Source: an uncultured Clostridia bacterium
Lineage (GTDB): Bacteria > Bacillota > Clostridia > Christensenellales > Borkfalkiaceae
Assembly: GCA_947631325.1 (NCBI GenBank)
Contig: CANRKX010000006.1
Location: 1-52,580, forward strand
DNA length: 52,580 bases
Direction of reading: 5' to 3'
The notes beneath the pieces were generated by a model. That model made no database searches and had not been told where the DNA came from. It saw only the letters and a list, made by a program, of their open reading frames with translations. Position 1 is the stretch's first letter; each line of letters starts with the position of its first letter. A program made the position numbers and the translations under genes. Shown one piece after another: positions 2,496 to 48,852 of the stretch.

Positions 2496-2653
2496 ACCTT
2501 CTCTCCCCCGAACCTTTGGGTTCGGGTACTCTCCCCCTTAGAAAGTGGGAAAGTCAAAATGAGGTGAAATTATTAGAAGTAGTCGCCGCATACCCGATGG
2601 GATTCTTCGGCAGGCGCGCGGCGTTCACGCCGCGCGCCGCTCAGAATGACAGC
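2496..2653 (+). repeat. Composite intergenic repeat A+B, copy 1
   Basis: Module A (2496-2565) starts 24 bp after the gltX stop. It contains a CGAACC-TTT-GGTTCG hairpin flanked by two copies of a CTCTCCCCC arm, then the partner arm GTGGGAAAGT. Module B (2573-2653) begins TAGAAGTAGTCGCCG, holds a long inverted repeat (GCGCGCGGCGT/ACGCCGCGCGC) and ends GCTCAGAATGACAG. No gene is visible in 2473-2908. Confidence 0.85.
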
Positions 2654-2676
2654 AAGGGAGGGGCGCGGTTATTATT

Positions 2677-2724
2677 GTTAATCATAAGCAATGCTCATCA
2701 TAAGCCGTGCCCATAGAAAGACGC
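2677..2724 (+). repeat. 16-bp tandem repeat, three degenerate units
   Basis: Units begin at 2677, 2693 and 2709. The middle one reads GCTCATCATAAGCCGT. The same unit forms a five-copy array at 37197-37275. Confidence 0.7.
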
Positions 2725-2768
2725 GGGACAGAGATGCGAGCAGGCAAGGAATAATAAGGAAAAATAAT

Positions 2769-2850
2769 TAGAAGTAGGCACCGCATACCCTATGGGATTC
2801 TTCGACAGGAGCGCGGCGTTCACGCCGCGCTCCGCTCAGAATGACAGCAT
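2769..2850 (+). repeat. Module B repeat, copy 2 (solo)
   Basis: TAGAAGTAGGCACCGCAT start, a perfect inverted repeat GGAGCGCGGCGT/ACGCCGCGCTCC, then the GCTCAGAATGACAG end. It has no adjacent A module. It is followed by a 17-base stretch (2870-2886, GTTTATACGAAGCGCGA) shared with 37381 and 39315. Confidence 0.8.
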
Positions 2851-2908
2851 TGGAAGAGCCGCGCAAAATGTTTATACGAAGCGCGAAAGTAGTACAAAGG
2901 AGAGGAAT

Positions 2909-3640
2909 ATGGAGATAGTAACAGCGTTACTTGTGGCGGCGTTTCTGTTCATCACCGGCAGCATGCTCGGGTGGGTGACGGAAGTGCTGTTCAGAAGATT
3001 TTTTACGGCTAAGAAATGGATAAATCCCGGGTTCCTTACAGGTCCCTATCTGCCCCTGTACGGCTTCGGACTGGCGGGGCTGTTCGCCGTTTCGTTTTTA
3101 CCGATATATACGGGTTACGCGTGGCTCGACGCCATACTTATAATACTTATAATGGGCGTCACGATGACGCTAATCGAGTACATAGCGGGGCTGATATTCA
3201 TAAAGGGAATGAAGATAAAGCTTTGGGATTACTCCAACAGGTGGGGAAACGTGCAGGGCATAATTTGCCCGCTGTTTTCGCTGTTTTGGCTGATTGTGGC
3301 GGCGTTCTACTACCTTGTCATAAGGCTGTATGTGATTGACGCGGTGGTGTGGTTTGTCGAAAATATAGAGTTTTCCTTTGTGGTGGGGCTGTTTCTCGGC
3401 GTGTTTTTGGTCGATTTGGGGCACTCGCTGCATATTTCGGCGAAGATACGCGCGTTTGCGAAGAAGCATGAGATTGTCGTGTCCTTCGAGAAGTTGAAGG
3501 AGAGCGTGAAAGATAAGATTGAGTCGATTGGCAGCAAGGCGAGCTTTGTGTTCCCCTTTAAGTCGGCGAGACCCTTGGACGATGAGTTGGAGAGTTACAA
3601 GGACGAACAGGAGAAGGGGAAGGAGAGAGAGACCCATTGA
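2909..3640 (+). CDS. Polytopic membrane protein of the CmpB / putative ABC-permease (PF06541-like) family
   Basis: 243-residue integral membrane protein with about five or six hydrophobic segments in residues 1-180, containing GWVTEVLFRRF and NPGFLTGPYLPLYG, which match the family annotated as putative ABC transporter type IV (CmpB). The C-terminal 60 residues are charged and cytoplasmic. The transport substrate is unknown and no ATPase partner is adjacent. I place the start at the ATG at 2909, behind the strong AAAGGAGAGG site. The frame stays open upstream to 2792, but that extension is the translated repeat and has no family similarity. Repeats flank the gene on both sides, so it is probably a single transcription unit. 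Confidence 0.8.
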   Translation: MEIVTALLVAAFLFITGSMLGWVTEVLFRRFFTAKKWINPGFLTGPYLPLYGFGLAGLFAVSFLPIYTGYAWLDAILIILIMGVTMTLIEYIAGLIFIKGMKIKLWDYSNRWGNVQGIICPLFSLFWLIVAAFYYLVIRLYVIDAVVWFVENIEFSFVVGLFLGVFLVDLGHSLHISAKIRAFAKKHEIVVSFEKLKESVKDKIESIGSKASFVFPFKSARPLDDELESYKDEQEKGKERETH

Positions 3641-3647
3641 GCGGGCG

Positions 3648-3803
3648 ACCTTCTCTCCCCCGAACCTTGGGGTTCGGGTACTCTCCCCCGTAAACGGTGG
3701 AAAGTTATAATGAGGTGGGATTATTAGAAGTAATCGCCGAGACCACGGGGGGATATTTCGACTGCGCTCGACTTATAAGTCTCGCTTCGCTCAATATGAC
3801 AGG
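3648..3803 (+). repeat. Composite intergenic repeat A+B, copy 3
   Basis: Module A begins 8 bp after the stop codon: CGAACC/GGTTCG hairpin, then CTCTCCCCCG-TAA-ACGGTGG stem. Module B (3724-3803) ends GCTCAATATGACAG. No gene is visible in 3641-4029. Confidence 0.85.
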
Positions 3804-3885
3804 AAGAGATGAGCCGCGGCGTTGTGTGTCACAAAAAATTTTAAAATAATAAAAAAACAATATGACCAAGCTCGATAAGGAAGCG

Positions 3886-4017
3886 TTGCGGAGATGCGAG
3901 CAGAACAAGGAGAGCGCGGATTGTCCCGACGGGAGCGTACAATGAAGTACGTGACCGAGGGCAAACGCAAGCTCGACACAGTTATGCGAAGTATATACGC
4001 GGCGCGCAAGTATAGAC
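3886..4017 (+). repeat. Repeat module D, copy 1, with a GTAC hairpin
   Basis: About 130 bp similar to 37276-37410. It holds the stem-loop CGTAC-AATGAA-GTACG (3936-3951). In the other copy the stem is GTGTAC/GTACAC. It lies directly upstream of the ABC exporter ORF and may act in its leader. Confidence 0.6.
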
Positions 4018-4029
4018 AGAGGTGCTAAT

Positions 4030-6981
4030 ATGCTTGAGTTGATAAATATAACAAAAGACTATCCCGTGGCGGGGGGAAAGGTGCAGGCGTTAAAGGGCGT
4101 CAGCATCAAGTTCAGAAAGAATGAGTTCGTCTCCATTCTCGGCGCTTCGGGCTGCGGAAAAACCACCCTCTTAAACATTATAGGCGGGCTCGACAAGTAC
4201 ACGTCGGGCGACCTTCTGATTGAGGGAGTCAGTACCAAGCAGTACGGCGACAGGGATTGGGATACCTACCGCAACCATTCGATAGGCTTTATCTTCCAGA
4301 GCTATCACCTTATACCCCAACAGACAATTTTGCAGAACGTGGAGCTTGCGCTCACCATTGCGGGCGTTGCCAAGGACGAGAGGAAGAGAAGGGCGATTGA
4401 AGCCCTCGAAAAGGTGGGGCTTTCGGATAAATTGAACAACCGACCCAACCAGCTTTCGGGCGGGCAGGCGCAGAGGGTGGCGATTGCGCGCGCCCTTATA
4501 AACGACCCCGAAATAGTGCTCGCCGACGAGCCGACGGGCGCGCTCGACTCCAAGACCAGCGTGCAGATAATGGAGCTTTTGAAGGAAATCTCCAAGGACA
4601 GACTCGTTATTATGGTCACGCACAACCCCGAGCTTGCCGAGAAGTACTCGACGAGAATTATAAGGCTGTTGGACGGAACGGTGACCGACGACAGCATGCC
4701 TTACGACGGCGGGGAAGAGGGCTTGGATAAGGGATATGCAGGGGGCAATTTACAAAATAACAATAATGACGCTATCATTGGCGAGGACGGCGGGAAAGAA
4801 GAGGACGGCGACACAGCCGAGAAAAAAGAGCAGATAGAAAGCCCGAACGCCGAGGAGAGCGGAGAGGAGAAAGAAGGCGGGGCGGCAATACCCCAAAAGA
4901 AAAAGACCAACAAGGGCAGAAAGAAAAAGACTTCGATGTCCTTTGGGATGGCGTTTATGCTGTCGCTCAAAAACCTGCTGTCGAAGAGCAAGCGGACAAT
5001 TATGGTCTCCATTGCGGGGAGCATAGGAATTATAGGCGTCTCGATGGTGCTCGCCATTTCCGCGGGCGTGCAGGGCTACATCGATAAGATGGAGGACGAC
5101 ATGCTGTCGGGCTATCCCCTTACGGTGGCGGAGATGGCGGTGGATATAAATTCGCTTATGGGCACAGCCGCCGAGCAGAATACCAAGGTGGACCCGAGAA
5201 GGATAGACGACAAGGTGTACGTGGATTCGGTTGTAGACAGCCTGATGGAGATGAACAACGCCTTTGTCACCAATATAGTGAGCGAGCAATACATAGACTA
5301 TGTGAAGAAGATGCCCGAGAGCTACTATAACGCCATAACATACGATTACGGCACACAGATGGCGAACAATATCTTCGCCGAATATCACATTAAGGACGGC
5401 GACGAGGGGGAGATGATTTCCGTCACGGGAATAAGGCAGACCTATTCGTCGGTGCTCATGAATATTGCGACGAGCGATAAGGCAAACGAGGCGTTTATGT
5501 ACTTTGCGGGATATATCCCCATGGTGCGCTCGTTCAGTCAATTGCCCGACAACTATAACTATGTGCTGTCGCAGTACGACATAGTGGCGACGAGTCTCGG
5601 AAAGACGGAAAATCTGACAGAGAGCCAGCTTGAGGACATTTTCGAAAATAAAGACAGCCTTATAATGGTTTTGAACAACGGGGCGACGAGCGATTTGGAC
5701 CTTGCGCAGTACGGATTTGTGTCGCAGAATTACTTTATAGACTATGCCGAGAACGTCAAGCACATTGCGCAGGACGGAAAAGAGGTGACGAACGAGAACA
5801 ATCCCGACCTCATAAACTTTGACTATTCGCAGTTCCTCGGGGGAGACAAGGCGCACTTCAGGTGGTACCCTGCGGATACTGTGTACGTGCCCGTGGACGA
5901 GGGGGAGAAAATACCCCTTCCGAGCGATATTACGACGGCGACTTCGCAGTTTGCCGAATATAAATATCTGCCCAAAGAGAGCGAATTTGATGAAAACCGC
6001 GAAAAGGGAGACGACGTTGATTTGAAGGTCAAGGTAATACTCCAAAAGAAGGAGGGCGTTTCCTACGGGTGCCTTGCTTCGGGAATGTACTACACTAAGG
6101 CGCTGTCCGACCACGCCTTAAAGACGGGCAGAGAGAGCAAGCTTGCAAAATACATAAACGAACACGGAGCGTTGGCGGGGGTGCCGTATATGCTATCATA
6201 CCAATACCCCGCAGACGTGGTGCACAATCCCATTATTCCAAACTATCTCATTTCGCAATCGGACAATATGATGGAACGGGTGATGGGGTCGTTTACGGGG
6301 AGCGATGCGGTCAACAATAAATATAAAATCGACCTATCATACGTCGGGGCGGGCGAACTTCCAAAGACTTTCGAGATATACCCCCTCGACTTCGAGAAAA
6401 AGGAGCTTGTGACAGATTACCTCGACGGGTGGAACGACATGTGCGAGAGCAAAGCCGAATATACATACACGGCGGCGGACGGGAGCGAGGTTAAAATAAC
6501 CTTAGACGAGGACTATGAAATTGAATACACCGACACGGTTGGGTTGATAATCAGTATGGTCAACACGATGATTGAGATGATAACCGTGGCGTTGGTGGCG
6601 TTCACCGCGCTGTCGCTCGTCGTATCTACTGTCATGGTGGGCATTATAACCTATGTGTCCGTCGTCGAGAGGATAAAGGAGATAGGAATTCTGCGCGCCG
6701 TGGGTGCGAGAAAGAAGGACATAAAGCGACTGTTCATGGCGGAGACCTTTATAATAGGGCTTGCGGCGGGAATTGTCGGCATTGCGGTGACATATATACT
6801 GTCGCTCATATTGAATCTGATAATAGGGGGGCTGTTCGGAATTTATACCATTGCGGCTCTCCCCATATGGCAGGCGGTTATCATGGTGCTGATAAGCGTG
6901 ATGCTGACGCTCATTTCGGGGCTGTTGCCCGCGGCGGCGGCGGCGAAAAAGGACCCCGTTGTGGCGTTGAGGACGGAGTGA
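4030..6981 (+). CDS. MacB-like ABC exporter: ATPase fused to an FtsX-type permease
   Basis: 983-residue fused ABC protein. The nucleotide-binding domain (about 1-225) has Walker [10 protein letters not shown], signature LSGGQ, Walker [12 protein letters not shown] and an H-loop (VTHN), all intact. An acidic then lysine-rich linker (about 226-310) leads to TM1 (about 318-345), a large extracytoplasmic domain of about 500 residues, and three C-terminal TM helices with the FtsX-type segment [21 protein letters not shown]. This is the MacB mechanotransmission architecture. Peptides, lipids or drugs are typical substrates; the actual one is unknown. Likely a homodimer. The start is at 4030, with AGAGG nearby (4018-4022). 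Repeats lie on both sides. Confidence 0.9.
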
Positions 6982-6993
6982 GCTGCCGAAACA

Positions 6994-7158
6994 ACCTTCT
7001 CTCCCCCGCGTTTTAAGAACGCGGGTACTCTCCCCCGTAAACGGGGGAAAGGTATAATAAGGATATAATAAATAGAAGTAATAACCGAGACCACGAGGGG
7101 ATTCTTCCACTCAATCGAACCTGCTTCGCAGGATTCTCATTCGGTCAGAATGACAACA
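6994..7158 (+). repeat. Composite intergenic repeat A+B, copy 4
   Basis: Module A begins 13 bp after the ABC stop. Its inner hairpin is CGCGTT-TTAAG-AACGCG, a different sequence from copy 1 but still paired. The second stem, CCCCCGT-AA-ACGGGGG, is near-perfect. Module B (7073-7158) contains CCTGC/GCAGG and ends GGTCAGAATGACA. Confidence 0.85.
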
Positions 7159-7257
7159 TGGAACGAGCTCGGATATTATTGTAAATAGGAAGCCGTGGCG
7201 CGGAATGACAGCATAGGACGGGCGGGGTTATAAATATATAAATAGGGAGGAAAAAAT

Positions 7258-8079: not shown

Positions 8080-8095
8080 GGGGGCTGACGAAACA

Positions 8096-8280
8096 ACCTT
8101 CATCCGTCTTTTTCTCGCTTTGCTACGAAAAAGACACCTTCCCCCTTACAAAGTGGGAAGGGTATAATAAGGTGGGATATTTAGAAATAGTCGCCGCATA
8201 CCCGATGGGATATTTCGTCGTACCGCTGCGATAGCAGACTACGCGCGGCGTGAACGCCGCGCTCCGCTCAGGATGACAGC
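8096..8280 (+). repeat. Composite intergenic repeat A'+B, copy 5
   Basis: Variant A' starts 17 bp after the stop with stem GTCTTTTTC/GAAAAAGAC, then CCTTCCC/GGGAAGG. Module B (8182-8280) carries GCGCGGCGT/ACGCCGCGC and ends GCTCAGGATGACAG. Nothing else is seen in 8080-8385 apart from AT-rich sequence and the next gene's ribosome-binding site. Confidence 0.85.
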
Positions 8281-8385
8281 ATTGTGTGAGCCGCGCTTTG
8301 GGAAAACACATACGCGGTAGAACGGGCGGATAAGATATAAATAAAGAAATAAACTGCCGAAAATAAAGGCGGGAAGGAGTTATAT

Positions 8386-9273: not shown

Positions 9274-9289
9274 GAAAAAATCATCGCTC

Positions 9290-9536
9290 GCCTTCTCTCC
9301 CACGAACCTTTGGGTTCGTGTACTCTCCCCCGCTTGCGGGGGAAAGTTATAATGAGGTGGGATTATTAGAAATAGTCGCCGCATACCCGGGGGGATATTT
9401 CGACTGCGCTCGACTTTTAAGTCTCGCTCCGCTCAATATGACATGTTGGGACGGGCGGGATTCTTAATCGCTCTGCCGTTTCCCAAAGGGAACCCTCGGC
9501 AGGGCTTCGGGCTTACGCCCTCGCGCAATATGACAG
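9290..9536 (+). repeat. Composite intergenic repeat A+B+C, copy 6
   Basis: Module A (9290-9360) has stems CGAACC/GGTTCG and CCCCCGC-TT-GCGGGGG. Module B (9367-9443) ends GCTCAATATGACA. Module C (9460-9536) is a nested hairpin, CTGCCG/CGGCAG enclosing TTCCC/GGGAA, ending GCGCAATATGACAG. No gene in 9274-9614. Confidence 0.85.
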
Positions 9537-10418: not shown

Positions 10419-10435
10419 AAAGGGCAAAAATTTAA

Positions 10436-15548: not shown

Positions 15549-15838
15549 ACCTTCTCTCCCCCGAACCTTAGTAGCGGTTCGGGTACTCGTCTCAACGGCT
15601 GTAAGGAAAGACAGCCGTCTCGGGCACCGCTCGCGCGGACGTATGCGCTCGCTCTTCTCACACAAAAAAACAGCGGGTGTCCGCTGTTTTAAGAATTTTG
15701 TGTTCGTCCCTTAAAAAGTGGGAAGGTTATAATGAGGATATAATATTAATAATCAGAAATAGTCGCCGAGACCACCATGGGATCCCTCGACTCTATCGAA
15801 CTCGCTTCGCGAGGTTCTTAATCGCTCGGGATGACAGG
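15549..15838 (+). repeat. Composite repeat A+B, copy 7, A interrupted by about 110 bp
   Basis: Module A starts at 15549 with stem CCGAACC/GGTTCGG, breaks off after about 15598, and resumes near 15707 with the GTGGGAAGGT arm. Module B covers 15755-15838. The insert carries its own hairpin (15667-15690). Apart from these repeats and the rplM promoter and leader, 15355-16062 contains no gene. Confidence 0.75.
15667..15690. terminator. Bidirectional terminator-like hairpin inside the A-repeat insert
   Basis: AAAACAGCGG-GTGT-CCGCTGTTTT: 10-bp stem with an A tract on one side and a T tract on the other, as in two-way intrinsic terminators. Confidence 0.6.
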
Positions 15839-15965
15839 TTGGGAGAGAGGTTCTTGTTTGTACAATATGAAAGGGGTGAAAATGGGGTGGAAGTGGGGGG
15901 ATTTTGGGAGAGTTAAAATAAATTTAAAATTTATAAAAAACTTTGTAAACGCAACTCAAAACAGC

Positions 15966-22210: not shown

Positions 22211-22729
22211 ATGATTCATTACGTCAAGTGTCCGAGGTGCGACCTCAACTATATAGACCCGGAGACGCAGGAGTACTGCGACGTGTGCATCGCGGAGATG
22301 CAGGGCAATAAATTGCAGTTTGCAGACCTCGACGACGAGGACTACGAACAGCTGGACGAGGAGCTCGGCGACGGCGACGATATCTGCCCCGTCTGCGGCG
22401 TCAACCCCATACGTCTCGGCGAGAAAATGTGCGAGAGCTGCCGCATGCAGCAGGAGTACGAAGAGGACGAGGACGTCGATATGGATAAGGACGAGGAGTG
22501 GAAGGAATACCTCGACGAGGACGACAGCGATTTGACGGTGGACGCCGAACTCGAGCAGGAGCTTGAAGCCGAGCTCGACGAGGAAGAAGAGGAGGACGAA
22601 GAGTACGACGGGGAGAGCGCGGACGACGAGCTTGAGGACGACTTCGAGGACGTCGGCTCGCTCGACGACTATGACGATGACGACGATGACGACGAGGACG
22701 AAGAGGACGAGGACGACGACGATTTTTAA
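22211..22729 (+). CDS. Acidic protein with two zinc-ribbon knuckle pairs
   Basis: 172 residues. The N-terminal 80 residues carry four CxxC knuckles: C7/C10 with C23/C26, and C59/C62 with C74/C77, giving two probable zinc sites (CPRC..CDVC and CPVC..CESC). Everything after about residue 82 is almost only Asp and Glu with few hydrophobics and ends in an Asp run. The architecture suggests a nucleic-acid mimic or a metal- or ribosome-associated adaptor, but no named family is recognised. Own promoter and terminator, so monocistronic. Confidence 0.8.
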   Translation: MIHYVKCPRCDLNYIDPETQEYCDVCIAEMQGNKLQFADLDDEDYEQLDEELGDGDDICPVCGVNPIRLGEKMCESCRMQQEYEEDEDVDMDKDEEWKEYLDEDDSDLTVDAELEQELEAELDEEEEEDEEYDGESADDELEDDFEDVGSLDDYDDDDDDDEDEEDEDDDDF

Positions 22730-23361: not shown

Positions 23362-25710
23362 ATGAAACGTAAAGGTTTGATTATTTTGCTTGCGATGATT
23401 TGCATAGTTTGTTGCGCGTTTGCTTTATCTGCCTGTGGCAATTCTGGCGGCGGCAATAACTCTGGCGACACCGATCAAACAGATCCAAACGGTGGGACAA
23501 TTTCAGGTAGCGACGAAAACTGCGAACACAAATGGAGTTCATGGTCAACCGTTTCGGAAGCAACGTGTACCGAAAAAGGCAGTGAGGAACGCACCTGTTC
23601 GGTCTGTGGTGGTAAGGAAACAAAAGAGATACCTGCTCTCGGACACGTCTTTGGCACTGACAATGTTTGTACGAGGTGCGGCTTTGAGTTAAAGCCTACC
23701 GTCGGTCTTGAATACGAATTGATTAACGATACAAGCAGTTATTATGCAAGTAGTTACTATACCGTTACGGGTTTGGGCAATGCCGATGCCAAAGAAATTG
23801 TAATTCCTGCATATCATGCAGGCAAGACTGTTAAAAAAATAGCGGATGAAGCCTTTTACGGCAGCGATTATATTACAAGCGTTTATTTGCCGGGAACGAT
23901 AAATGAAATTGGCAAGGAAGCGTTTTATTGGTGCGAAAATTTAAGTGAGCTGACAATCTCTAAACCTACAGATTACTCATTAATAATAAATGAGCAAGCA
24001 TTTTATGGTTGCACTAAACTAAAAAATATAAGCCTGCCTGACGTAGTAACCGAAATTTATTCAAATTCGTTTGAAAATACAGGCTACTACAAAGATAAAA
24101 ACAACTGGAAAAACGGAGCTTTGTTTTTGTGTGGCTGGCTGTTGACCACCGACAGCGCCGCGCCTACCGAATTAACATTGGATTCGTCGGCAAAAGGTAT
24201 AGCAAACAACGCACTTTCAAACAGCAATATTACAAAAATAATTATCGAGACATCTATCAAATGCATAGAGAAATCTTTTGCAAACTGCAAGATTACCTCT
24301 GCAACTATTGCCGACAGGGATAATTTAATTTATCTGCCTAAAAAGCAGATAACAGAATTAAATATAATTTCGGACGAGCTATATGAAAATGATTTAAATG
24401 GATTTGGTTATTTGCAGAAATTGACAGTTCCGTCTTTATTGATTCATGAAAGGGGCTCTTCACGTCGATATAATGCGCAATTGCATTATCTGTTCGGACA
24501 AGCTCAGTATGAAGGCGCAGTAGAGGTGATAAGAGGATATTATAATAAAAATAATTATGAAACTGAATCGAAGCCATACTATATACCTTCTTCATTATGC
24601 GAAATAACCGTTCTGAGTGGTGCTATACCTGATTGTGCATTTTCAGGTATTTTATCTCTTAATAAATTCAATATAGGTAGCAGCGTTACTAGTTTAGGCA
24701 AATATATATGTAAGTTTAGTAATGAAAACGTCATTTTTAACTTTGTAGATGTAAATAGTTTTCTCAATGTAGATAAGGTTGCTTCAAATTGGTGTGCATA
24801 CTCAATAAAACACTGGATGAATGATGATGTGAATTCAGGAATTTACACGTTGGGTGACGAGTATTTTAAAATAACTTTAAATAATAATATAATTGTTGAT
24901 TTTAACTTACCTGACGGCACAACTAAAATTAAAGATTATACTTTCTGTAGTTGTACAAGCCTTGAAAGCATAACCATACCTAACAGCGTAACTTCTATTG
25001 GAAAAAATGCGTTCTGTAATTGCACAAGCCTTGAAAGCATAACCATACCTAACAGCGTAACTTCTATTGGAAATAATGCGTTCTATTATTGTACAAACCT
25101 TAAAAGTATTTATATAACCGATTTCACGGCTTGGTGTAATATTTTTGATTGTTCCTTTCCACCTTTGTCTAATGAATACAATCTTTATTTAAACAATGAA
25201 CCTGTAACCGAAATCACCGCCAATATGCTGAAAGGCGTAACTGAAATCAAAAGTTATGCGTTCCTGTATTGCGCAAGTCTTAAAAGCATAACTATAGCCG
25301 ACTACATAACTTCTATCGGAGATCATGCGTTTGAGCACTGCACAAATCTTAAAAGCGTGAATTTTAGCAATAATAGCAAACTAACTTCAATCGGCGATTG
25401 GGCGTTTGAGGGTTGCACAAGCCTTGAAAGCATAACCATACCTAACAGCGTTGCTTCTATCGGCTATGGTGCGTTCAAGCGTTGCACAAAACTTACGAGC
25501 ATAACCATCCCCGACAGCGTAACTTCTATCGGTGCTGCTGCGTTCGAGTATTGCACAAGCCTTACAAGCGTAACTTTTAATAACACCGTTGGCTGGAAAG
25601 TTTCACTTAGCAGTAATATGTCAAACGCAATAAGCGTAACTGTTACTGACCCTACACAAAATGCTGAATATTTTCGGACCTATTTGAATTATTACTGGAG
25701 ACGAGAGTAA
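23362..25710 (+). CDS. BspA-type leucine-rich-repeat lipoprotein
   Basis: 782 residues. The signal peptide ends in lipobox LSAC (Cys25). A Gly/Ser/Asp-rich linker is followed (about 55-105) by a Cys/His module (CEHKWSSW...ATCTEKG...CSVCGG...PALGH) common in clostridial surface proteins. LRR_5 repeats follow (about 150-240 and 520-770), of the form IPNSVTSIGxxAFxxCTSLESIT. Such proteins bind host matrix or other cells. The repeats are nearly identical at DNA level in places (69-bp units), and the gene is clearly AT-richer than its surroundings, suggesting acquisition from another genome. Consensus promoter; weak ribosome-binding site (GAGG, 12 nt before the ATG). Terminator at 25765. Confidence 0.88.
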   Translation: MKRKGLIILLAMICIVCCAFALSACGNSGGGNNSGDTDQTDPNGGTISGSDENCEHKWSSWSTVSEATCTEKGSEERTCSVCGGKETKEIPALGHVFGTDNVCTRCGFELKPTVGLEYELINDTSSYYASSYYTVTGLGNADAKEIVIPAYHAGKTVKKIADEAFYGSDYITSVYLPGTINEIGKEAFYWCENLSELTISKPTDYSLIINEQAFYGCTKLKNISLPDVVTEIYSNSFENTGYYKDKNNWKNGALFLCGWLLTTDSAAPTELTLDSSAKGIANNALSNSNITKIIIETSIKCIEKSFANCKITSATIADRDNLIYLPKKQITELNIISDELYENDLNGFGYLQKLTVPSLLIHERGSSRRYNAQLHYLFGQAQYEGAVEVIRGYYNKNNYETESKPYYIPSSLCEITVLSGAIPDCAFSGILSLNKFNIGSSVTSLGKYICKFSNENVIFNFVDVNSFLNVDKVASNWCAYSIKHWMNDDVNSGIYTLGDEYFKITLNNNIIVDFNLPDGTTKIKDYTFCSCTSLESITIPNSVTSIGKNAFCNCTSLESITIPNSVTSIGNNAFYYCTNLKSIYITDFTAWCNIFDCSFPPLSNEYNLYLNNEPVTEITANMLKGVTEIKSYAFLYCASLKSITIADYITSIGDHAFEHCTNLKSVNFSNNSKLTSIGDWAFEGCTSLESITIPNSVASIGYGAFKRCTKLTSITIPDSVTSIGAAAFEYCTSLTSVTFNNTVGWKVSLSSNMSNAISVTVTDPTQNAEYFRTYLNYYWRRE

Positions 25711-25813: not shown

Positions 25814-25956
25814 AGGATATGGTGGGATTATTAGAAGTAGTAACCGAGACCACGGGCGGGTGGGGATAACCATAATATTGTAATAATATTTAGAAATGCA
25901 AGCCGCATACCCGATGGGATATTTCGACTTCGCTTCGCTTCGCGCAATATGACAGC
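25814..25956 (+). repeat. Module B repeats, truncated copy plus second copy
   Basis: TTAGAAGTAGTAACCGAGACC (first 30 bp of B) is interrupted at about 25860. A second B start (TTTAGAAATGCAAGCCGCAT) follows at 25890 and runs to GCGCAATATGACAG at 25956. Looks like one B inserted into another. Confidence 0.75.
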
Positions 25957-26023
25957 AGGGAACGGGCGCAGGGAGGGGGAGAAGGGGTGCATAAGATTGG
26001 GGGGAATTGGCAAAAATTATAGT

Positions 26024-37017: not shown

Positions 37018-37184
37018 ACCTTCATCCGTCTTTTTCTCGCTTCGTTACGAAAAAGACACCTTCCCCCTTTGAAAGTGGGAAGGGTATAATAAGGAATAAT
37101 AATAATTAGAAATAGTAACCTCATACCCGAGGGGATATTTCGACAGGAGCGCGGCGTTTACGCCGCGCTCCGCTCAATATGACA
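37018..37184 (+). repeat. Composite intergenic repeat A'+B, copy 9
   Basis: A' (37018-37095) with stems GTCTTTTTC/GAAAAAGAC and CCTTCCC/GGGAAGG; B (37107-37184) with GGAGCGCGGCGTTTACGCCG and GCTCAATATGACA end. 36998-37491 contains only repeats and the next gene's ribosome-binding site. Confidence 0.85.
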
Positions 37185-37196
37185 CTCTCTGCCGTC

Positions 37197-39065: not shown

Positions 39066-39292
39066 ACCTTCATCCGTCTTTTTCTCGCTTCGTTACGAAA
39101 AAGACACCTTCCCCCTTTGGAATGGGGAAGGTTATAATAAGGAATAATAATTAGAAATAGCTGCCGCATACCCGATGGGATCCTTCGACAAGCTCAGGAT
39201 GACAGGTTGGGACGGGCGAAGTTCTTAATCGGTCTGCCGTTTCCGCAAGCGGAGCCTCGGCAGGGCTTCGCTTCGCTCGCGCAGAATGACAA
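39066..39292 (+). repeat. Composite intergenic repeat A'+B+C, copy 10
   Basis: A' (39066-39140), a shortened B (39151-39204) ending GCTCAGGATGACAG, and C (39220-39292) with outer stem CTGCCG/CGGCAG (39234-39239/39258-39263) and inner stem TCCGC/GCGGA. A 28-nt block at 39304-39331 is shared with 2859-2886 (one mismatch). No plus-strand gene in 39027-39333. Confidence 0.85.
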
Positions 39293-40008: not shown

Positions 40009-40009
40009 A

Positions 40010-42292: not shown

Positions 42293-42293
42293 T

Positions 42294-42605
42294 TCAAATC
42301 CTGCCTTTGAAAATCTTTTTATATATTTGGTTTATCTCCATAAGGTCGTTTTGACCCGCTTTGAGTTTGCTGAGCCCCAACCGCGTTATCTTGTAATATC
42401 GCCTGAGCCGCCCCGAAAATTCCGCCGTCCTCGTCGTTAAGCAACCGCCCGCTTCAAGCCTTTTTAAAATAGGGTATAGGGTGCTTTCGGAAATCTCGAT
42501 TATTCCCTGCAAGTCGCTGATTATCTTATAACCATAGCTTTCGCCGCGCTCCAAAGCCGACAATACGCATATTTCGAGAACACCTTTTTTAAGCTGAATT
42601 TCCAT
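42294..42605 (-). CDS. PadR-family transcriptional regulator
   Basis: 103 residues, the short PadR-s1 type. Winged helix containing LKKGVLEICVLSALERGESYGYKII, ISESTLYPILKRLEAGGCL and RLRRYYKIT. First gene of a padR-DUF1700-DUF4097 operon (one-base gap to the next). A palindrome in its promoter (42628-42646) suggests autorepression. AGGG lies 9 nt before the ATG. Confidence 0.93.
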   Translation of the reverse strand: MEIQLKKGVLEICVLSALERGESYGYKIISDLQGIIEISESTLYPILKRLEAGGCLTTRTAEFSGRLRRYYKITRLGLSKLKAGQNDLMEINQIYKKIFKGRI

Positions 42606-42627
42606 ATCAATACCCTGTTTCGTAGAA

Positions 42628-42657
42628 TACTATACAATACATAGTAATGATTGTCAA
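42628..42657 (-). promoter_or_regulatory. padR promoter with palindromic operator
   Basis: Minus strand: TTGACA (42657-42652), 17-bp spacer, TATAGT (42634-42629). Palindrome TACTAT-N7-ATAGTA (42628-42646) covers the -10 box and adjacent spacer, fitting PadR autoregulation. Confidence 0.7.
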
Positions 42658-42691
42658 GTATTTTTTGTCAAATTTTACTGATAATATTTGC

Positions 42692-44128
42692 ATGACTTCA
42701 TTGGATAAAAACGTTAAGGCGGTAAAAAAGATTCTCTCGAGCGAGGACGTGCTGGTATTTGAGTTCGCCTCGGAAGGGGGGAAGAAGTTTGCCGCCGTGT
42801 ACGCCGACGGCATTTCGGATAAGGCTTTATTGGGCGAGCTGGTCGTAAAGCCCCTGCGCGACGTCAAAAAAGACGAAAAGCTGGAAAGAATAAAGCTTCT
42901 TCTTGCATCGCCCGAGGTCAAGGACGGCAAAAAGATTGAGGACGCCGTAAATGAGATTTCGGACGGCAACGCCGTGCTGTTTGTGGACGGCGAGGCGGAG
43001 TACTTTATAATAGGTCTTAAAAAACCGCCCGCCCGCGCCGTGGCGGAGCCGCCCACGCAGATAGCCGTGAAAGGTCCGAGGGAGGGATTTATCGAGGAGA
43101 TAAAGACCAACATGGGGCTTGTGCGAAAGAGAATAAAGAGCGACAAATTGCAGATAAAGACAGTAAAGTGCGGCAAGCGTTCGGACACGGCGGTGGCTAT
43201 CGTCTATATCGAGGGGGTGTGCCCCAAGGGACTGCCCGAGAAGATACAAAAGGAGATTGAAAAGAACGAGATAGACATTGTTCCCGACTCGTCATACATT
43301 TCGGCGTTCGTCTCTAAAAAGCCGAGGTCGGTGTTCAAGAGGTGCGCGACGGCGGAAAAGCCCGACATATTCTGCGCGAAGGTGTGCGAGGGTAGGGTGG
43401 GAATTCTCGTCGACGGGTCGCCAATAGCCCTGACGGTGCCCTATATGATCGTTGAGGACTTCCAGACGGGCGAGGACTATTACACGAGTTCATACAGGGC
43501 GACGACGCTGAGAATAATAAGATTTATATCCGTAATGATAGGCGTTTTTCTGCCCGCGCTGTATGTGTCGGCGCAGCTGTTTAAAATACAGCTCATACCC
43601 TTTCGGCTGTTGTTGAAGATATCGAGTTCGGTGCAGGGGCTGGCGCTATCGCCGAGCATTGAAATGTTTCTGACGCTGCTCGTGTTGGAAGTTTTAAACG
43701 AGGCTTCCATACGCATGCCTAAATACGTGGGACTGGCACTGTCGGTGGTCGGCGCGTTGGTCTTGGGCGACACCGCCGTGAAAGCGGGAATAATTTCGAC
43801 GCCTGCGATAATAATCATAGCGTTTTCGGCAATCTGCCTTTATACCGTGCCAGACCTCGTGGAGACGACGACAACTTTGAGGTGGATATTTCTGATCGTC
43901 GCGGGGAGCGTGGGACCCTTCGGGGTGGTAGTTCTGACCTGTTTCCTCATAAGCTATCTCGTCACAGAACAGTCCTACGGCGTGCCCCTTTTGGCGCCCT
44001 TTGCGCCCATCGTTAAAAGCGATTTGGCGGACAGCCTTTATAAAGCCAACGGCTATTCGCTCAAAAAACGACCGAAGGTATTGAAGACGCCCGACAAAGT
44101 GAGATTGAAAAGTGAAGATAAAAGTTAG
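42692..44128 (+). CDS. gerAA: Spore germination protein GerA (A subunit of a germinant receptor)
   Basis: 478 residues. N-terminal cytosolic domain, then the GerA membrane domain with CAKVCEGRVGILVDGSPIALTVPYMIVEDFQTGEDYYTSSYRATTLRIIRF and several TM helices (RMPKYVGLALSVVGALVLGDTAVKAGIIS). Together with B and C subunits it senses germinants in the spore inner membrane. I prefer ATG 42692; an in-frame ATG at 42647 lies within the padR control region. No Shine-Dalgarno site. AGTATT, 17 bp, GATAATA (42657-42686) resembles a forespore sigma-G promoter ending at the start codon; weak evidence. Confidence 0.9.
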   Translation: MTSLDKNVKAVKKILSSEDVLVFEFASEGGKKFAAVYADGISDKALLGELVVKPLRDVKKDEKLERIKLLLASPEVKDGKKIEDAVNEISDGNAVLFVDGEAEYFIIGLKKPPARAVAEPPTQIAVKGPREGFIEEIKTNMGLVRKRIKSDKLQIKTVKCGKRSDTAVAIVYIEGVCPKGLPEKIQKEIEKNEIDIVPDSSYISAFVSKKPRSVFKRCATAEKPDIFCAKVCEGRVGILVDGSPIALTVPYMIVEDFQTGEDYYTSSYRATTLRIIRFISVMIGVFLPALYVSAQLFKIQLIPFRLLLKISSSVQGLALSPSIEMFLTLLVLEVLNEASIRMPKYVGLALSVVGALVLGDTAVKAGIISTPAIIIIAFSAICLYTVPDLVETTTTLRWIFLIVAGSVGPFGVVVLTCFLISYLVTEQSYGVPLLAPFAPIVKSDLADSLYKANGYSLKKRPKVLKTPDKVRLKSEDKS

Positions 44129-45179
44129 ACAGATTTGTTTTATGCTTATAGCGTACACTGTGGCGGCGAGACTGTTGCAGTACCCCACGCTGTTGTCTGA
44201 GTACAGCGGAAGGGATTTGATATTGTCCGCCCTTATCGACTTCGCCGTGCAGACTGTCGTGATATGGGCGGTGGCGTACCTCTGCTCGCGCACGGATAAG
44301 ACCTTTTTCGGGCTGTTGGAAGGGGCTTTGGGAAGGGTTGCGGCGCGAATTATAATTGGACTTTTCGGGGCGTTCTTCATCCTCGCTTCATTCGTGCCAC
44401 TCTATGAGCAAAAGTTATATGTGCATGCGACTTTTTACGACACGGTGCCGTCGCTGTACGTCTTTTTACCCATCATTTTCTTCACCATATATGCGGGGGC
44501 AAAGTCCTTTACCAATATCGGGCGTTCGGCGGATATCTGCGCCGTCATATTCGCGCTATCATTTATATTTATACTCGCAATGTCTTTAAGCGAGGTTGAC
44601 TTTACCAATTTACTGCCCATTGCAAAGACGGGCGCGGGCGCGATATTCGGCGGGGCGTTGAAGTCGGCATACAGATTTGTCGAGCCCGCCTATTTGTTGA
44701 TGTTTATGGGGAGATTTGAGTATAAGAAGGGGGACGCGGCGAAGATAACTTTAAGCTATGCCTTCGGCGCGCTCATCGTAATGGCGTTTTTGGCGATTTT
44801 TTACGGAATATATGCAGATATCGCCCCGTCAAGGCAGTTTGCCATATCCAAGACTTCGCTATATTTTTCGGCGATAGACATGATTGGAAGGGTTGACCTG
44901 ATTGCCCTGTACGCCCTCGAAATAGTCATGCTGTTCGCAATAGTTTTAAATCTGCAACTTGCGGTGAACTGCATTGAGGAGTGCCTGAATATAAGGGGGG
45001 CGGAGTGGCTGTCGCTCGCGGTGACGGCGGCGTTGACTGCGACAATTTTAATCTTCAACAACCATTTCAACAATATTTCAAACTTCTTTGCGGATTGGAT
45101 GTGGATTGTGACCGTAGTCTTTGCTACTTTGCTGCCGCTGTGCGCGCATGCGCTGCCGAGGAGGAAAAATGAGAATTAA
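44112..45179 (+). CDS. gerAB: Spore germination protein, B subunit (GerAB/amino-acid permease type)
   Basis: 355 residues with about ten TM helices, the APC-superfamily fold of GerAB (QICFMLIAYTVAARLLQYPTLLSEYSGRD start; FFGLLEGALGRVAARIIIG). This subunit binds the germinant in known receptors. GTG start at 44112 overlaps the gerAA end by 17 nt. The last codons overlap gerAC by 11 nt, so translation through the operon is coupled. Which amino acid or nucleoside is sensed cannot be told. Confidence 0.9.
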   Translation: MKIKVRQICFMLIAYTVAARLLQYPTLLSEYSGRDLILSALIDFAVQTVVIWAVAYLCSRTDKTFFGLLEGALGRVAARIIIGLFGAFFILASFVPLYEQKLYVHATFYDTVPSLYVFLPIIFFTIYAGAKSFTNIGRSADICAVIFALSFIFILAMSLSEVDFTNLLPIAKTGAGAIFGGALKSAYRFVEPAYLLMFMGRFEYKKGDAAKITLSYAFGALIVMAFLAIFYGIYADIAPSRQFAISKTSLYFSAIDMIGRVDLIALYALEIVMLFAIVLNLQLAVNCIEECLNIRGAEWLSLAVTAALTATILIFNNHFNNISNFFADWMWIVTVVFATLLPLCAHALPRRKNEN

Positions 45180-46533
45180 GAGATATTCATTTGTAATCTT
45201 TTGGCTGTTGATTATCGCCCTTTCCGCGCTGTACTTTACCAACGACTTCGGGTTGGTGGATATCCATAAGACGGCTATCATCGCGGCGGTGGGCGTGGAC
45301 GTCGAGGGCGAAGAGGTGCAGGTGACGGCGCAGCTTGCCGTTCCCAAGCCCTCGCAGAGCGGCGAAAACGTGGAATACACCGAGGTGCAGGGCAGCGGCG
45401 AGACCATAGCAGACGCCTTAAACGAGATAAACGCAAAGACGGGATTTTACCCCAAATTGCAGTTCTGCAAACTCATTTTATTGGGCGACAGCTGCCAAAA
45501 GCGCAATATATTTCAGGTTTTGGGGTGCTTTTACAGGAAGAATTATTCCGAGCTTACAGCGCTTGTGGCAATGTGCAAGGGCAAGGCTTCTGAGATGCTG
45601 TCCATGCCCGTGCCGACGAGCGACATGAATTCGACCGCAATACAGAGGGTGCTCGCCGAAGAGCTCAAAAAGTCGGCAAACGTGTCGAGCGTGAGCTTGA
45701 AGGACATTGCCGTCGATAACTTTTCGAAGAGCGCGGCGGTGTATATGCCCTATGTCGAGGCGAACAAGCAGGGAACTTCGGCGGCGGGCGGCGACGGCGA
45801 TAACGTTGGCGGCGAGCCGCCGCAGGGGTCGCAGGGCGGGTCGCAAGGAGAGAGCGGGTCGCAGGGCGGCGGCTCGGGAGAGAGCGGTGGCGGCTCGGGC
45901 GGCGGCGAGAGCGGTGGAAGCGGCGGTTCGGGTTCGTCGGGCGGCGGCGGAAGCGGTGGAAGTGGCGGCTCGGGAGAGAGCGGTGGCGGAAGCGGCGGCG
46001 GAAGTTCGGACAATGCGGGGCAATCGCCCGTGGAGTTCACGGCGAGAAAGACGGCAATCTTTTCGGGCGGGGAGTTTCGCGGAATTCTCGACGAAAGGCA
46101 GTCATTCGCCCTCGACCTCATCAAAAACGATATAAGGCTTGCGGTTTTGCCCTGCGACGCGGGGGGACTGCATTACACATTGGGGCTCAAAGGTTTGGGC
46201 GGCGGAAGCAAGATAAAGATAGAGGACGGAAAGCCCCGCCTCACCCTGAAATTTTCGGCGAACGCGCAGATTGCGGGCGTCAAGAAGGTGGTTGACCCCG
46301 ACGAGACGGCGAGCGACGACGTGCTCTCGCCCGAAGTAATTGAGGGGGCGAAAAGGGAAATCGAGGGCAGATTTCAATCCTTGATAGAGGTCTGCAGGGA
46401 GAAAAATTGCGACCTGTTGGGCGTTAAAAATATGATTTTCAAGTTCGATAATAAGAACTTCGATGAGTTTGCGGACAGCGTGCTTGGCGAGATGAAAGTG
46501 CAATATAAAATAGACATAAAGTCGGCAAACTGA
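45169..46533 (+). CDS. gerAC: Spore germination protein, C subunit, with Gly/Ser insert and no lipobox
   Basis: 454 residues. GerAC-type N-terminal domain (VDIHKTAIIAAVGVDVEGEEVQVTAQLAVP; LQFCKLILLGDSCQKRNI) and C-terminal domain (ALDLIKNDIRLAVL...VKNMIFKFDNKNFDEF). Two oddities. The usual lipoprotein signal with Cys is absent: the N-terminal hydrophobic helix (about 7-24) has no cysteine, so the protein is anchored by an uncleaved TM. And residues about 205-284 are a low-complexity Gly/Ser/Glu stretch splitting the middle of the protein. GAGGA precedes the ATG at 45169. Third gene of the gerA operon. Confidence 0.88.
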   Translation: MRIKRYSFVIFWLLIIALSALYFTNDFGLVDIHKTAIIAAVGVDVEGEEVQVTAQLAVPKPSQSGENVEYTEVQGSGETIADALNEINAKTGFYPKLQFCKLILLGDSCQKRNIFQVLGCFYRKNYSELTALVAMCKGKASEMLSMPVPTSDMNSTAIQRVLAEELKKSANVSSVSLKDIAVDNFSKSAAVYMPYVEANKQGTSAAGGDGDNVGGEPPQGSQGGSQGESGSQGGGSGESGGGSGGGESGGSGGSGSSGGGGSGGSGGSGESGGGSGGGSSDNAGQSPVEFTARKTAIFSGGEFRGILDERQSFALDLIKNDIRLAVLPCDAGGLHYTLGLKGLGGGSKIKIEDGKPRLTLKFSANAQIAGVKKVVDPDETASDDVLSPEVIEGAKREIEGRFQSLIEVCREKNCDLLGVKNMIFKFDNKNFDEFADSVLGEMKVQYKIDIKSAN

Positions 46534-46546
46534 AAAAAATTAAGAA

Positions 46547-46575
46547 GCGGCGGCGCGGAAAATCCGCGCCGCCGC
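46547..46575. terminator. Terminator between gerAC and the convergent membrane gene
   Basis: GCGGCGGCGCGGA-AAA-TCCGCGCCGCCGC. A T-rich stretch follows on the plus strand (TTCTTTTT). Confidence 0.8.
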
Positions 46576-46586
46576 CCCCATTCTTT

Positions 46587-47111
46587 TTACGGCGTTTTTT
46601 CAATGACTTCGAGCGTGCGGGAGATGAGTTCGGCAAGGGCCGAAAGTTCGCCCTCGGACACTTCGGACAGGGCAAAATTCTTGAGTATTTCAAGGATATC
46701 CCCGCTCCTTTTTTCGCCCGCCGCCGTCGCCGCAATCTCGGAAGCGACGGCGTTTTGGGACTGTTCTTCGATAAATCCCGAAAGCATACGAAAGATCAAA
46801 TCTTCCTTAAAAGTTCCGCTCTTTCCGCCCGACAACCGCTCATACATCACATAACCCGACGTCGCCAAAGCCCCGACGAGTATGCCGCGTTCAAAGAGGG
46901 TGAGATATCCCCCCAAATCGGAAAAGACGGAGCAATCGCCGAAAGCCATCAAAGCGGCGTAAAGGGCTACGCCCACCAAGAAGGGCAGAAAGGCGACTAT
47001 CTTTTTGTCGGCATACTTTAAAAGGGTCTTTTTTAAAATCTGGGTTACAAAGGCGGTGACGATTGCAAGCGCAGCCACGTCCGCGCCGTAACAGGTGAAA
47101 GCATCAAACAT
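46587..47111 (-). CDS. Hypothetical membrane protein, holin-like topology
   Basis: 174 residues, family not recognised. Three hydrophobic segments (about 8-27, 38-58 and 75-90) are followed by a soluble, mostly helical C-terminal half with alternating Glu and hydrophobic residues (SGFIEEQSQNAVASEIAATAAG; SALAELISRTLEVIE). Size and layout recall phage holin-like proteins or small membrane scaffolds, but no motif confirms it. A clear AAAGGAG precedes the ATG. Convergent with gerAC. Confidence 0.7.
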   Translation of the reverse strand: MFDAFTCYGADVAALAIVTAFVTQILKKTLLKYADKKIVAFLPFLVGVALYAALMAFGDCSVFSDLGGYLTLFERGILVGALATSGYVMYERLSGGKSGTFKEDLIFRMLSGFIEEQSQNAVASEIAATAAGEKRSGDILEILKNFALSEVSEGELSALAELISRTLEVIEKTP

Positions 47112-47237
47112 CAGAATTTTCTCCTTTATTCGTCATTTTCACCCGGCGTCTATTTGTAATCGCGATTGATATATTTAAAACGCCATATAAAAAAATAAAA
47201 TTAAAATTTATGCGTGACTTTTCGGCGCGCATAACTC

Positions 47238-47266
47238 TTGCAAAATTCAGATATATATGTTAAAAT
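47238..47266 (+). promoter_or_regulatory. Promoter of trmB
   Basis: TTGCAA (47238-47243), 17-bp spacer, TAAAAT (47261-47266) with an extended -10 TG, the same TATATATGTTAAAAT string as the promoter at 172-186. GGAGGA follows before the ATG at 47285. Confidence 0.7.
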
Positions 47267-47284
47267 CCGTATGGAGGAAGAAAA

Positions 47285-47950
47285 ATGCGTATGCACAGAA
47301 AAGCCCACCTCGACGAGCGGCTTTTATCCTGCGGCGATATCTTAACCGTCGCCGACATGACGGATAAGAACATGAGGACGGCGGCGGAAAAGCCCGCATA
47401 TATTGATTGGGAGGGGATTTTCAAAAATAATAATCCCATAAATCTTGAAATCGGCTGCGGGAAGGGCAAGTTCGTCACGGAAATGGCAAAAAATAATAAT
47501 AACGTCAACTTCGTCGCAATCGAAAAGATTTCAAACGTGTTGATTGAAGCCCTCGAGAGGGCGAAGGCGGAGGGGATAGAGAACGTGCATTTTATTAACT
47601 GCGCCGCCGAGGTGCTGCCCAAGTACTTCAAGGAGGGGAGCGTGGAGAAGATATATCTCAATTTTTCCAATCCTCTTCCCAAGGAGGGCTATAAAAAACA
47701 GCGGCTGACGCACCCCAAGTTTTTAGAGATGTACGGGCGCATTTTAAAGGACGGGGGCAAAATAATACAGAAGACGGACGACAGGGATTTTTATGCCTTT
47801 TCGCTCGAGAGTTATTTGAAGTCGGGATTTGAGATTGAGGAGAGGTGCGAGGACTATCAGCTTGCGGCGGGCGACGTGGAGACAGAGCACGAGAGACTTT
47901 TTAAAGAGCGCGGAAAGAAAATCTTCCGCATTGTGGCGGTGAAGGCATGA
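47285..47950 (+). CDS. trmB: tRNA (guanine-46-N7)-methyltransferase
   Basis: SAM-dependent methylation of G46 in the tRNA variable loop. 221 residues. N-terminus MRMHRKAHLDERLLSC, SAM motif NLEIGCGKGKFVTEMA, VAIEKISNVLIEALERA, and the catalytic-region loop NFSNPLPKEGYKKQRLTHPKF. In most homologues this loop reads FSDPWPK; here Asn and Leu replace Asp and Trp, so catalysis may be altered, although Asn at this site also occurs in other clostridia as far as I know. Overlaps the next gene by 4 nt. Confidence 0.9.
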   Translation: MRMHRKAHLDERLLSCGDILTVADMTDKNMRTAAEKPAYIDWEGIFKNNNPINLEIGCGKGKFVTEMAKNNNNVNFVAIEKISNVLIEALERAKAEGIENVHFINCAAEVLPKYFKEGSVEKIYLNFSNPLPKEGYKKQRLTHPKFLEMYGRILKDGGKIIQKTDDRDFYAFSLESYLKSGFEIEERCEDYQLAAGDVETEHERLFKERGKKIFRIVAVKA

Positions 47951-48744
47951 CGGGCGGGATAGCCGCCGCCGTGATATGCGGCATTGCAATCTTAATACTT
48001 TTGGGCTTTTTATTCGTGTACTTCAATAACGACCTGTTGACGGTCAAAAGATACAGAGCCGAGCTTAATATGGAAAAGCCCGTAAAGGTGTTGCACCTTT
48101 CGGACTTGCATGCGAAGTCGTTCGGACCCGACAACGCGAGATTGTTGCAAAAAGTCAGGGCGGAGAAGCCCGATTTTATAGCGTTTACGGGCGATATCGT
48201 GCATAATTACAGCCCAAAAAACAAGAGGGTGGCGTTGAGATTTATGTCCGACCTCACTAAGATTGCGCCCGTTTTATACGTTTCGGGCAACCACGAGATG
48301 AGGAACAAGGGCTATCGCTTTTTCAGAAAGGACCTTATGGAAGCTGGGGCGATTGTGCTCGACGACGAGGAAATAGAAATATGCGGCGTGAAAGTGGTGG
48401 GGCTAAACTGCGCGTCGCTTAAAAACGGCACGATAGATAGGTTTAAGGAGGGCGCGGAGAACAAGATTTTGCTGGCGCATATGCCGCAGTTTTTCGAGAC
48501 TTACAGGGACGCGGGGTTTAAGCTTGTGCTGTCTGGGCATGCCCACGGCGGGCAGTGGAATATACCCTTTACGAGGATAGGTGTGTATGCGCCCGGGCAG
48601 GGAATGTTCCCCAAGTACTGCTCGGGGCAATATGAAAAGGGCGGAATGAAGATGATAGTTTCGCGAGGGCTTGGCAATTCGGAATTTCCGCTGAGGTTGT
48701 TCAACCCGCCCGAGATTTGCGTGATTGAGGTTGGGGGGAGATAG
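47947..48744 (+). CDS. Membrane-anchored metallophosphoesterase
   Basis: 265 residues. One N-terminal TM helix (about 4-27), then a calcineurin-like phosphoesterase domain with all metal motifs: LSDLHAK, FTGDIVHN, SGNHEMR, LLAHMP and SGHAHGGQW. The YkuE-like group acts on phosphodiesters or pyrophosphates at the membrane; the substrate is not known. Coupled to trmB by an ATGA overlap. Module A' begins 36 bp after its stop. Confidence 0.88.
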   Translation: MTGGIAAAVICGIAILILLGFLFVYFNNDLLTVKRYRAELNMEKPVKVLHLSDLHAKSFGPDNARLLQKVRAEKPDFIAFTGDIVHNYSPKNKRVALRFMSDLTKIAPVLYVSGNHEMRNKGYRFFRKDLMEAGAIVLDDEEIEICGVKVVGLNCASLKNGTIDRFKEGAENKILLAHMPQFFETYRDAGFKLVLSGHAHGGQWNIPFTRIGVYAPGQGMFPKYCSGQYEKGGMKMIVSRGLGNSEFPLRLFNPPEICVIEVGGR

Positions 48745-48779
48745 AAGAAGCGCCTTGAAAGTTTGCGCTTTATACTTCA

Positions 48780-48852
48780 ACCTTCATCCGTCTTTTTCTC
48801 GCTTCGTTACGAAAAAGACACCTTCCCCCTTTGGAAGGGGGAAGGTTATAAT
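48780..48852 (+). repeat. Module A' repeat, copy 11 (solo)
   Basis: GTCTTTTTC/GAAAAAGAC stem, then near-perfect ACCTTCCCCCTTTGGAAGGGGGAAGGT-type hairpin arms (ACCTTCCCCC and GGGGGAAGGT). No B follows. Confidence 0.85.

Follow-up and report, generated by a model that had tools for sequence, protein, structure and literature searches.

The question raised by this locus is whether a small double-hairpin sequence, found repeatedly behind the genes of an uncultured gut bacterium, is a signal in messenger RNA or a piece of mobile DNA. The window, that is, the whole stretch of 52,580 nucleotides that was analysed, corresponds to contig C6 of a draft metagenome-assembled genome (MAG) of an uncultured Clostridia bacterium (Coproplasma-like; 1.455 Mb in 78 contigs, 97% complete). 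It contains nine copies of this sequence, module A, each beginning at the coordinate given in a preliminary description made from the letters alone. Module A makes up the 5' part of an intergenic composite, A-B-C. Block B spans about 50 bp and is not palindromic, and C is a hairpin whose palindromic core can be exchanged (TTCGAC, a variable palindrome and GCTCAGRATGACA); sometimes a further cassette, D, is present. The orientation of the copies is random relative to the genes and follows the G-rich strand, which is presumably the leading strand of replication. We consider it probable, although well short of certain, that the composite is a non-coding mobile palindromic mosaic similar to BOX and REPIN elements, the spread or survival of which is tied to the direction of replication.

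Orientation on the G-rich strand

The G-rich strand of each contig was derived from the GC skew at third codon positions (GC3), corrected for gene strand; the origin and terminus of replication were not located. In most contigs the copies share one direction, also at places where the genes run opposite. By the sign of the skew, 46 of the 47 copies of A in the genome (stretches taken around matches) are found on the G-rich strand. On contigs with a resolved strand, and with more sequence of several contigs included, the same was true of all 75 copies of B and of 74 out of 76 copies of C, the unresolved contigs C22 and C37 holding 2 copies of B and 5 of C outside these tallies. When the cut-off for B on these contigs was lowered to 20 bits, 76 of 76 matches were on this strand, and the first opposite match was a 20-nt remnant (17.9 bits) near the single exception of A. 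Furthermore, the five copies of B found after the rule had been formed all agree with it (77 versus 72 copies). Coding GC3 skew in the genes beside B was +0.051 for the 58 co-oriented with it and -0.262 for the 76 anti-oriented ones (p=4e-21).

The new point is this strand lock of the composite, a pattern known from roughly one third of a single draft genome. In the literature searched we did not find such strand-faithful repeats described; the papers listed for five sequence strings of the repeat dealt with unrelated subjects, as judged by title and the start of the abstract, and among the titles listed none concerned such repeats in these bacteria. Since the G-rich strand can be read from almost every copy, the composite could serve to orient the contigs of draft genomes. 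One contig, C13 (L097, L253, L098), shows a flip of both GC3 skew and repeat orientation within its length, for which an origin, a terminus, an inversion or a misassembly are possible causes.

Position relative to the genes

As had been described, all nine copies of the window follow plus-strand genes, eight of them at 7-39 bp past the stop codon and one at 194 bp (genes were called by a home-made hexamer scorer, and individual distances from gene to copy may be off). The absence of a U tract after the hairpin was also correctly noted for the window copies, which are not ordinary terminators. From this arrangement a genome-wide structured mRNA 3' element, always in one orientation, had been proposed, and this rule fails in the rest of the genome. 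Of the 47 copies, 29 have an upstream gene in their own orientation and 16 one in the opposite orientation, and for 2 the upstream gene is missing; beyond the window the figures are 20 co-oriented and 16 anti-oriented (p=0.62). The congeners are similar: of 115 copies of A in 60 stretches from five congeners, 109 had a called upstream gene (1 was inside a called gene), co-oriented in 62 and anti-oriented in 47. Random placement with respect to gene strand is also the outcome that the preliminary description had named as counting against its RNA reading. The co-orientation within the window seems to come instead from the G-rich, presumably leading, strand, which the copies follow.

The gaps that contain the 115 congener copies were tandem '++' in 41 cases, tandem '--' in 42, convergent in 19 and divergent in 4. 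Pooling this genome with the congeners and taking as background gap classes with a cut-off of 100 bp (own genome) or 60 bp (congeners), divergent gaps were avoided (6 of 144 copies versus 44 of 247 gaps, p=6e-5) and convergent gaps were not significantly enriched (27 of 144 versus 38 of 247, p=0.40). The deficit in divergent gaps is what would be expected of tolerated insertion. For the pneumococcal repeats (BOX and others) it is the enrichment in convergent gaps that has been argued to be a sign of tolerated insertion (PMC3049150). A known RNA family was rejected, as the whole window gave no match at gathering score with any of 4227 Rfam families, and the six weak matches of the segment 2450-4000 at E values up to 10 were all below that score.

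Folding and exchange of the stems

Folding of six window copies out of the nine gave two hairpins in each case (z from -2.1 to -5.4). The genome-wide alignment separates two subtypes of A: t1, with ACCTTCTCTCCC and the inner stem CGAACC or CGCGTT, and t2, with ACCTTCATCC and the inner stem GTCTTTTTC. The sets of stems quoted earlier as covarying are real, but within the window they amount to a few block alleles and not to many independent changes; the inner stem is identical in the 16 aligned t2 copies of this genome. We used one alignment of 31 chosen sequences (8 own t2 copies and 23 others) and another of the 21 own t1 copies. The inner stem was paired at 92.1% in 30 distinct sequences of the family versus 66.4% in shuffles, with a number of pair types not above that of the shuffles (218 out of 500 reached it). 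Changed cells in the family alignment were two-sided in 64 cases and one-sided in 1, among 232 paired cells; in the own t1 copies there were 8 and 2, respectively.

Covariation of an RNA that proceeds stepwise should leave G-U intermediates, while the exchange of whole palindromes as blocks does not. G-U was found in 1 of the 232 paired cells of the family and in 2 of 166 in the own t1 copies (6 of 35 cells in five control tRNAs, a set too small to weigh much). Stems that have changed on both sides with almost no G-U fit DNA palindromes swapped as whole blocks. Actually, REPIN hairpins likewise carry compensatory changes (PMC3116915), so that pairing of the stems alone is no argument for RNA. 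In most copies the two mutually exclusive folds proposed for A do not make a balanced switch. In 35 sequences of this genome the rival fold, with arm 1 paired to arm 3 and arm 2 barred, costs a median of 8.5 kcal/mol (from 1.8 to 13.6), and in 23 relatives the median is 11.2 kcal/mol; a two-state RNA switch was rejected on the former median, although the penalty is only 1.8 in one copy.

A stabiliser or processing signal at the 3' end of mRNA, as first proposed, would account for the stable folds, for the avoidance of divergent gaps and for nine window copies out of nine behind co-oriented genes, eight of them within 40 bp of the stop. We nevertheless regard it as highly improbable, and rejected it, on the random gene orientation elsewhere in this genome and in the congeners and on the near lack of G-U pairs, to which the lack of any match in 49 of 60 congeners and in the whole-window Rfam scan can be added. 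The features by which a 3' RNA element is usually recognised, co-orientation with genes and 'covarying' stems, can arise from replication-strand bias combined with DNA palindromes swapped as blocks.

Architecture of the composite

Module A is not free-standing: eight of the nine window copies run on into B and C, as judged by model matches, and the copy at 48780 lacks both (Table 1). Of the copies of C, 63 out of 75 adjoin a B that lies on their strand, and B is out of reach in 8 of the 47 copies of A, for some of which the contig ends there. Cassette D sits at an identical joint in 8 of the 47. These distinct blocks in intergenic space form a modular composite of the type defined by BOX. The copy at 15549 is not intact, its second hairpin being broken by a cassette D of about 120 bp. 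This cassette, like those at L090, L094 and L113, holds AAAACAGCGGGTGTCCGCTGTTTT between A and T runs, which from its sequence is a possible two-way terminator travelling inside A. Covariance models run on the whole genome gave 23 matches with model R1 and 34 with R2, in overlapping sets; R2 added a single copy, of subtype t1 and from one end of contig C56, to those of the 47-copy set.

Table 1 Modules of the composite repeat in the window
Feature	Positions	Strand	Basis
Module A, t1, two hairpins	2496..2556	+	aligned, folded, model match
Module B	2555..2605	+	model match
Module C	2600..2675	+	model match
Module B, no A directly upstream	2751..2800	+	model match
Module C	2795..2868	+	model match
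Module A, t1	3648..3706	+	aligned, model match
Module B	3705..3755	+	model match
Module C	3751..3822	+	model match
Module A, t1, inner stem CGCGTT	6994..7053	+	aligned, folded, model match
Module B	7053..7104	+	model match
Module C	7099..7178	+	model match
Module A, t2, inner stem GTCTTTTTC	8096..8162	+	aligned, folded
Module B	8163..8212	+	model match
Module C	8208..8298	+	model match
Module A, t1	9290..9348	+	aligned, folded, model match
Module B	9347..9397	+	model match
Module C	9393..9466	+	model match
Module A, t1, hairpin 1 and beginning of hairpin 2, broken by cassette D	15549..15588	+	
Cassette D within second hairpin; terminator-like hairpin between A and T runs	15589..15707	+	
Remainder of second hairpin of the split copy 15549	15708..15726	+	
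Module B	15727..15785	+	model match
Module C	15780..15848	+	model match
Module B, no A	25817..25855	+	model match
Module B, no A	25872..25921	+	model match
Module C	25917..25970	+	model match
Module A, t2	37018..37084	+	aligned
Module B	37085..37137	+	model match
Module C	37133..37195	+	model match
Module A, t2	39066..39132	+	aligned, folded
Module B	39132..39183	+	model match
Module C	39179..39227	+	model match
Module A, t2, without B and C	48780..48846	+	aligned, folded

Two other repetitive regions were seen in the window: tandem-like units of 69 nt, with which a long open frame ends (24881-25568), and GAC/GAG runs that give another open frame (22211-22729) a repetitive and very acidic region.

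Insertion and distribution among relatives

Gene neighbourhoods were compared with the best 80 of 211 gltX loci of relatives, which come from Clostridia MAGs, several of them titled Candidatus Coproplasma; a gap was measured only where the two genes lay no more than 1500 bp apart. The gap between gltX and the next gene, which here holds the copy at 2496, measures 436 bp versus a median of 11 and a maximum of 132 in relatives (31 of the 80 loci), in several of which gltX touches or overlaps its neighbour. The gap with the copy at 3648 is 389 bp long versus -17 to 378 in 28 relatives (median 96.5), an excess that is small against the extreme relatives and large against the median, and the alaS gap is 708 bp versus 154-306 in 5 relatives. 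Three control gaps without the element agreed with the medians of the relatives, at 12 bp versus a median of 13.5 in 46 relatives (with 15 values above 800 bp), 10 bp versus 9-28 in 6 relatives and 20 bp versus 19-20 in 3 relatives. A single gap value, -774, stems from start extrapolation and is artefactual. By eye, no repeat-like sequence was evident in the relatives' gaps of median 11 bp. The copies have thus entered, within this lineage, spaces between genes that are close together in relatives, a statement that holds at the level of gene pairs and is not base-exact.

Model R1, applied to the congeners at E 0.001 with stricter filters, matched A in 11 out of 60, with 1 to at least 88 copies each (at most 88 candidates were taken per genome), and had no match in the other 49; a plain DNA query for A matched in 5 of the 60. 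The core pattern of A appeared in 13 of 290 other genomes of the class (14 of 291 including this one), from four labelled families beyond its own, with inner stems that differ yet are still paired, and the reversed-pattern control gave 0 in every row of that search. B was confined to this genome, one of 93 of the genus. The A family is therefore patchy within the genus and extends to other families of the class. The alternative offered in the preliminary description, a cruciform-forming mobile repeat, is supported by the lineage-specific insertion, by the patchy amplification in the genus and by the mosaic structure.

Some of these relatives deserve separate mention. In genome G113, which belongs to a different family of the class, the core of A is immediately adjoined by a C-like end, GCTCAGAATGACA (L156, L163), and hence A and C meet outside this genus too. 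Some of the A-like copies from other families precede a T run (L146, L149, L153), and their second hairpin may, to judge from this arrangement, act as an intrinsic terminator. In congener G042 (L210-L229), with at least 88 matches in the genome, A is often found in back-to-back inverted pairs about 20 bp apart.

How the composite might spread

The mobile mosaic that we favour as the best explanation needs neither a perfect lock nor B alone. The G-rich strand would be the leading strand, and new copies would be generated in trans, at the replication fork or behind it, by a strand-specific step, probably single-stranded and hairpin-recognising, which would let the composite enter in a single orientation with respect to the moving fork. 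Copies would persist mainly beside gene ends because, as we propose, insertions between divergent promoters are purged, and the stems would stay paired because whole palindromes would be exchanged or copied as DNA blocks. A precedent for orientation that follows replication direction exists in IS200/IS605 and in Tn7 TnsE (PMC5371812).

Several observations weigh against this explanation. The Y1 transposase (PF01797) gave 0 matches in this genome, where at 97% completeness its absence is not certain (the control rang in 5 of 14; other transposase families were not searched), and Y1 does not track A in the genus, being found in 3 of 11 congeners with A (two of the three partial) versus 15 of 49 without it. 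The candidate ends of the composite, CAACCT...AGGTTG, are both present in only 7 of 37 A-C copies; taken singly, CA precedes ACCTTC in 29 of 46 and the GACAGGTT end is found in 15 of 37. As to the strand, the A copy at L113:3972 is off the rule, with the 20-nt remnant of B nearby, as are two of the 76 copies of C, and contigs C11 and C37, with one copy of A each, have a strand estimate within its error (C11) or weakly determined (C37). The rpoBC contig, C33, examined only because of rpoB, has one B on each strand; the plus-strand one (L263:15224) is off-strand together with the adjoining C. Its skew is weak (r -0.045, standard error 0.017) but above the cut-off, so that the tally of B becomes 76 of 77. 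As rpoB lies on the G-rich strand of C33, this contig supports, weakly, the identity of G-rich and leading strand. Without B nearby, 7 of 8 copies of A and 9 of 12 of C are still on the G-rich strand. Finally, the copies of A in congeners were on that strand in 33 of 64, 9 of 24, 10 of 15, 4 of 10 and 1 of 2 cases, although these strand estimates are noisy and the copies of G042 are often in inverted pairs; on the large contig C3 of congener G002 the strands of A are mixed. A strand lock of A itself everywhere was rejected on these mixed strands, and Y1/RAYT as the present mobiliser was discarded, given that it was not found in this genome and does not co-occur with A in the genus.

The exceptions among A and C had no B at the cut-off used, yet copies lacking B mostly agree with the rule, and it is thus only suggestive that the lock is tied to B and not to A. 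A stronger version, possible but the less likely one in our judgement, is an obligate fork-polar mobile unit served by an unknown enzyme, or a selfish repeat domesticated as the chromosome polarity mark of one species; such a unit would keep near-absolute fidelity to one fork strand while carrying other palindromic modules, and this might concern B in particular.

We are more doubtful that B is simply a polar mark, similar to FtsK/SpoIIIE-orienting sequences or to fork barriers in permissive orientation, inserted at random and cleared of wrong-way copies by selection. Its lock (75 of 75, or 76 of 77 with C33) does exceed the leading-strand share of 61-63% in BOX, RUP and SPRITE (PMC3049150), and the A exception and three C exceptions lacked a nearby B at the cut-off applied. 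But B occurs in one species out of 93, copies without it mostly agree too, and in a recent repeat strong selection would be required on each copy. The octamers of B have low counts inside genes with no consistent strand bias, while others, including GAGAAGGG, are biased, and B as a carrier of polar octamers was rejected for this reason. GAGAAGGG, the SpoIIIE-orienting sequence of Bacillus subtilis, was found in genes 27 times on the G-rich strand and 2 times on the other (window and own stretches).

Less likely again is a spread without any transposase, through template switching associated with the fork or single-strand annealing between hairpin repeats on the same strand. Such a process would also swap stem blocks and nest modules, and it is consistent with the same-strand bias, the mosaic with modules nested at fixed joints (D in 8 of 47), the stems swapped as blocks and the Y1 gene that was not found. 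The entry into gaps of median 11 bp with no repeat-like sequence by eye is hard to achieve without an enzyme, and the many copies of the relatives are in mixed orientation.

Comparison with known systems

The mobile mosaic shares features with several known repeats. Like miniature inverted-repeat transposable elements (MITEs) it is short, present in many copies and has element-free sites in relatives (at gene-pair level), but any terminal inverted repeats would be those of the candidate ends, found together in only 7 of 37 A-C copies. With IS200/IS605, and with Tn7 TnsE, it shares an orientation that, as judged here by GC3 skew, follows replication direction (PMC5371812), and with the former subterminal hairpins; it differs in that the unit is non-coding and Y1 was not found in this genome (tnpB was not searched). 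The REP/BIME/REPIN repeats, linked to TnpA-REP or RAYT, are also intergenic hairpin repeats with compensatory changes (PMC3116915, PMC6006769), and the inverted pairs of A in congener G042 recall REPINs, although inverted doublets are not the form seen in the window. The REP hallmark GTAG/GTGG (5' GT[AG]G) at the hairpin foot was absent in the aligned copies, which have CTCTCC, CATCC or CATTC instead; this foot is described as a REP feature, with atypical classes lacking it (PMC6006769). In addition, the composites here are of a single polarity and lack a detected Y1 gene.

A further likeness, one of architecture, is to BOX of Streptococcus pneumoniae (boxA-boxB-boxC), since both are modular intergenic composites with strong secondary structure; here the units are A, B, C and D with exchangeable palindromes. 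BOX is over-represented between convergent genes and has been read as parasitic, and its leading-strand share is 60.8%, with 60.9% for RUP and 63.3% for SPRITE (PMC3049150), while the Bordetella BRE repeats show no co-orientation with the fork (PMC3110155). Against the 60.8% of BOX, B is on the G-rich strand in 75 of 75 copies (76 of 77 with C33). A lock so far above that of the pneumococcal repeats makes this composite a natural system for asking how small hairpin repeats spread.

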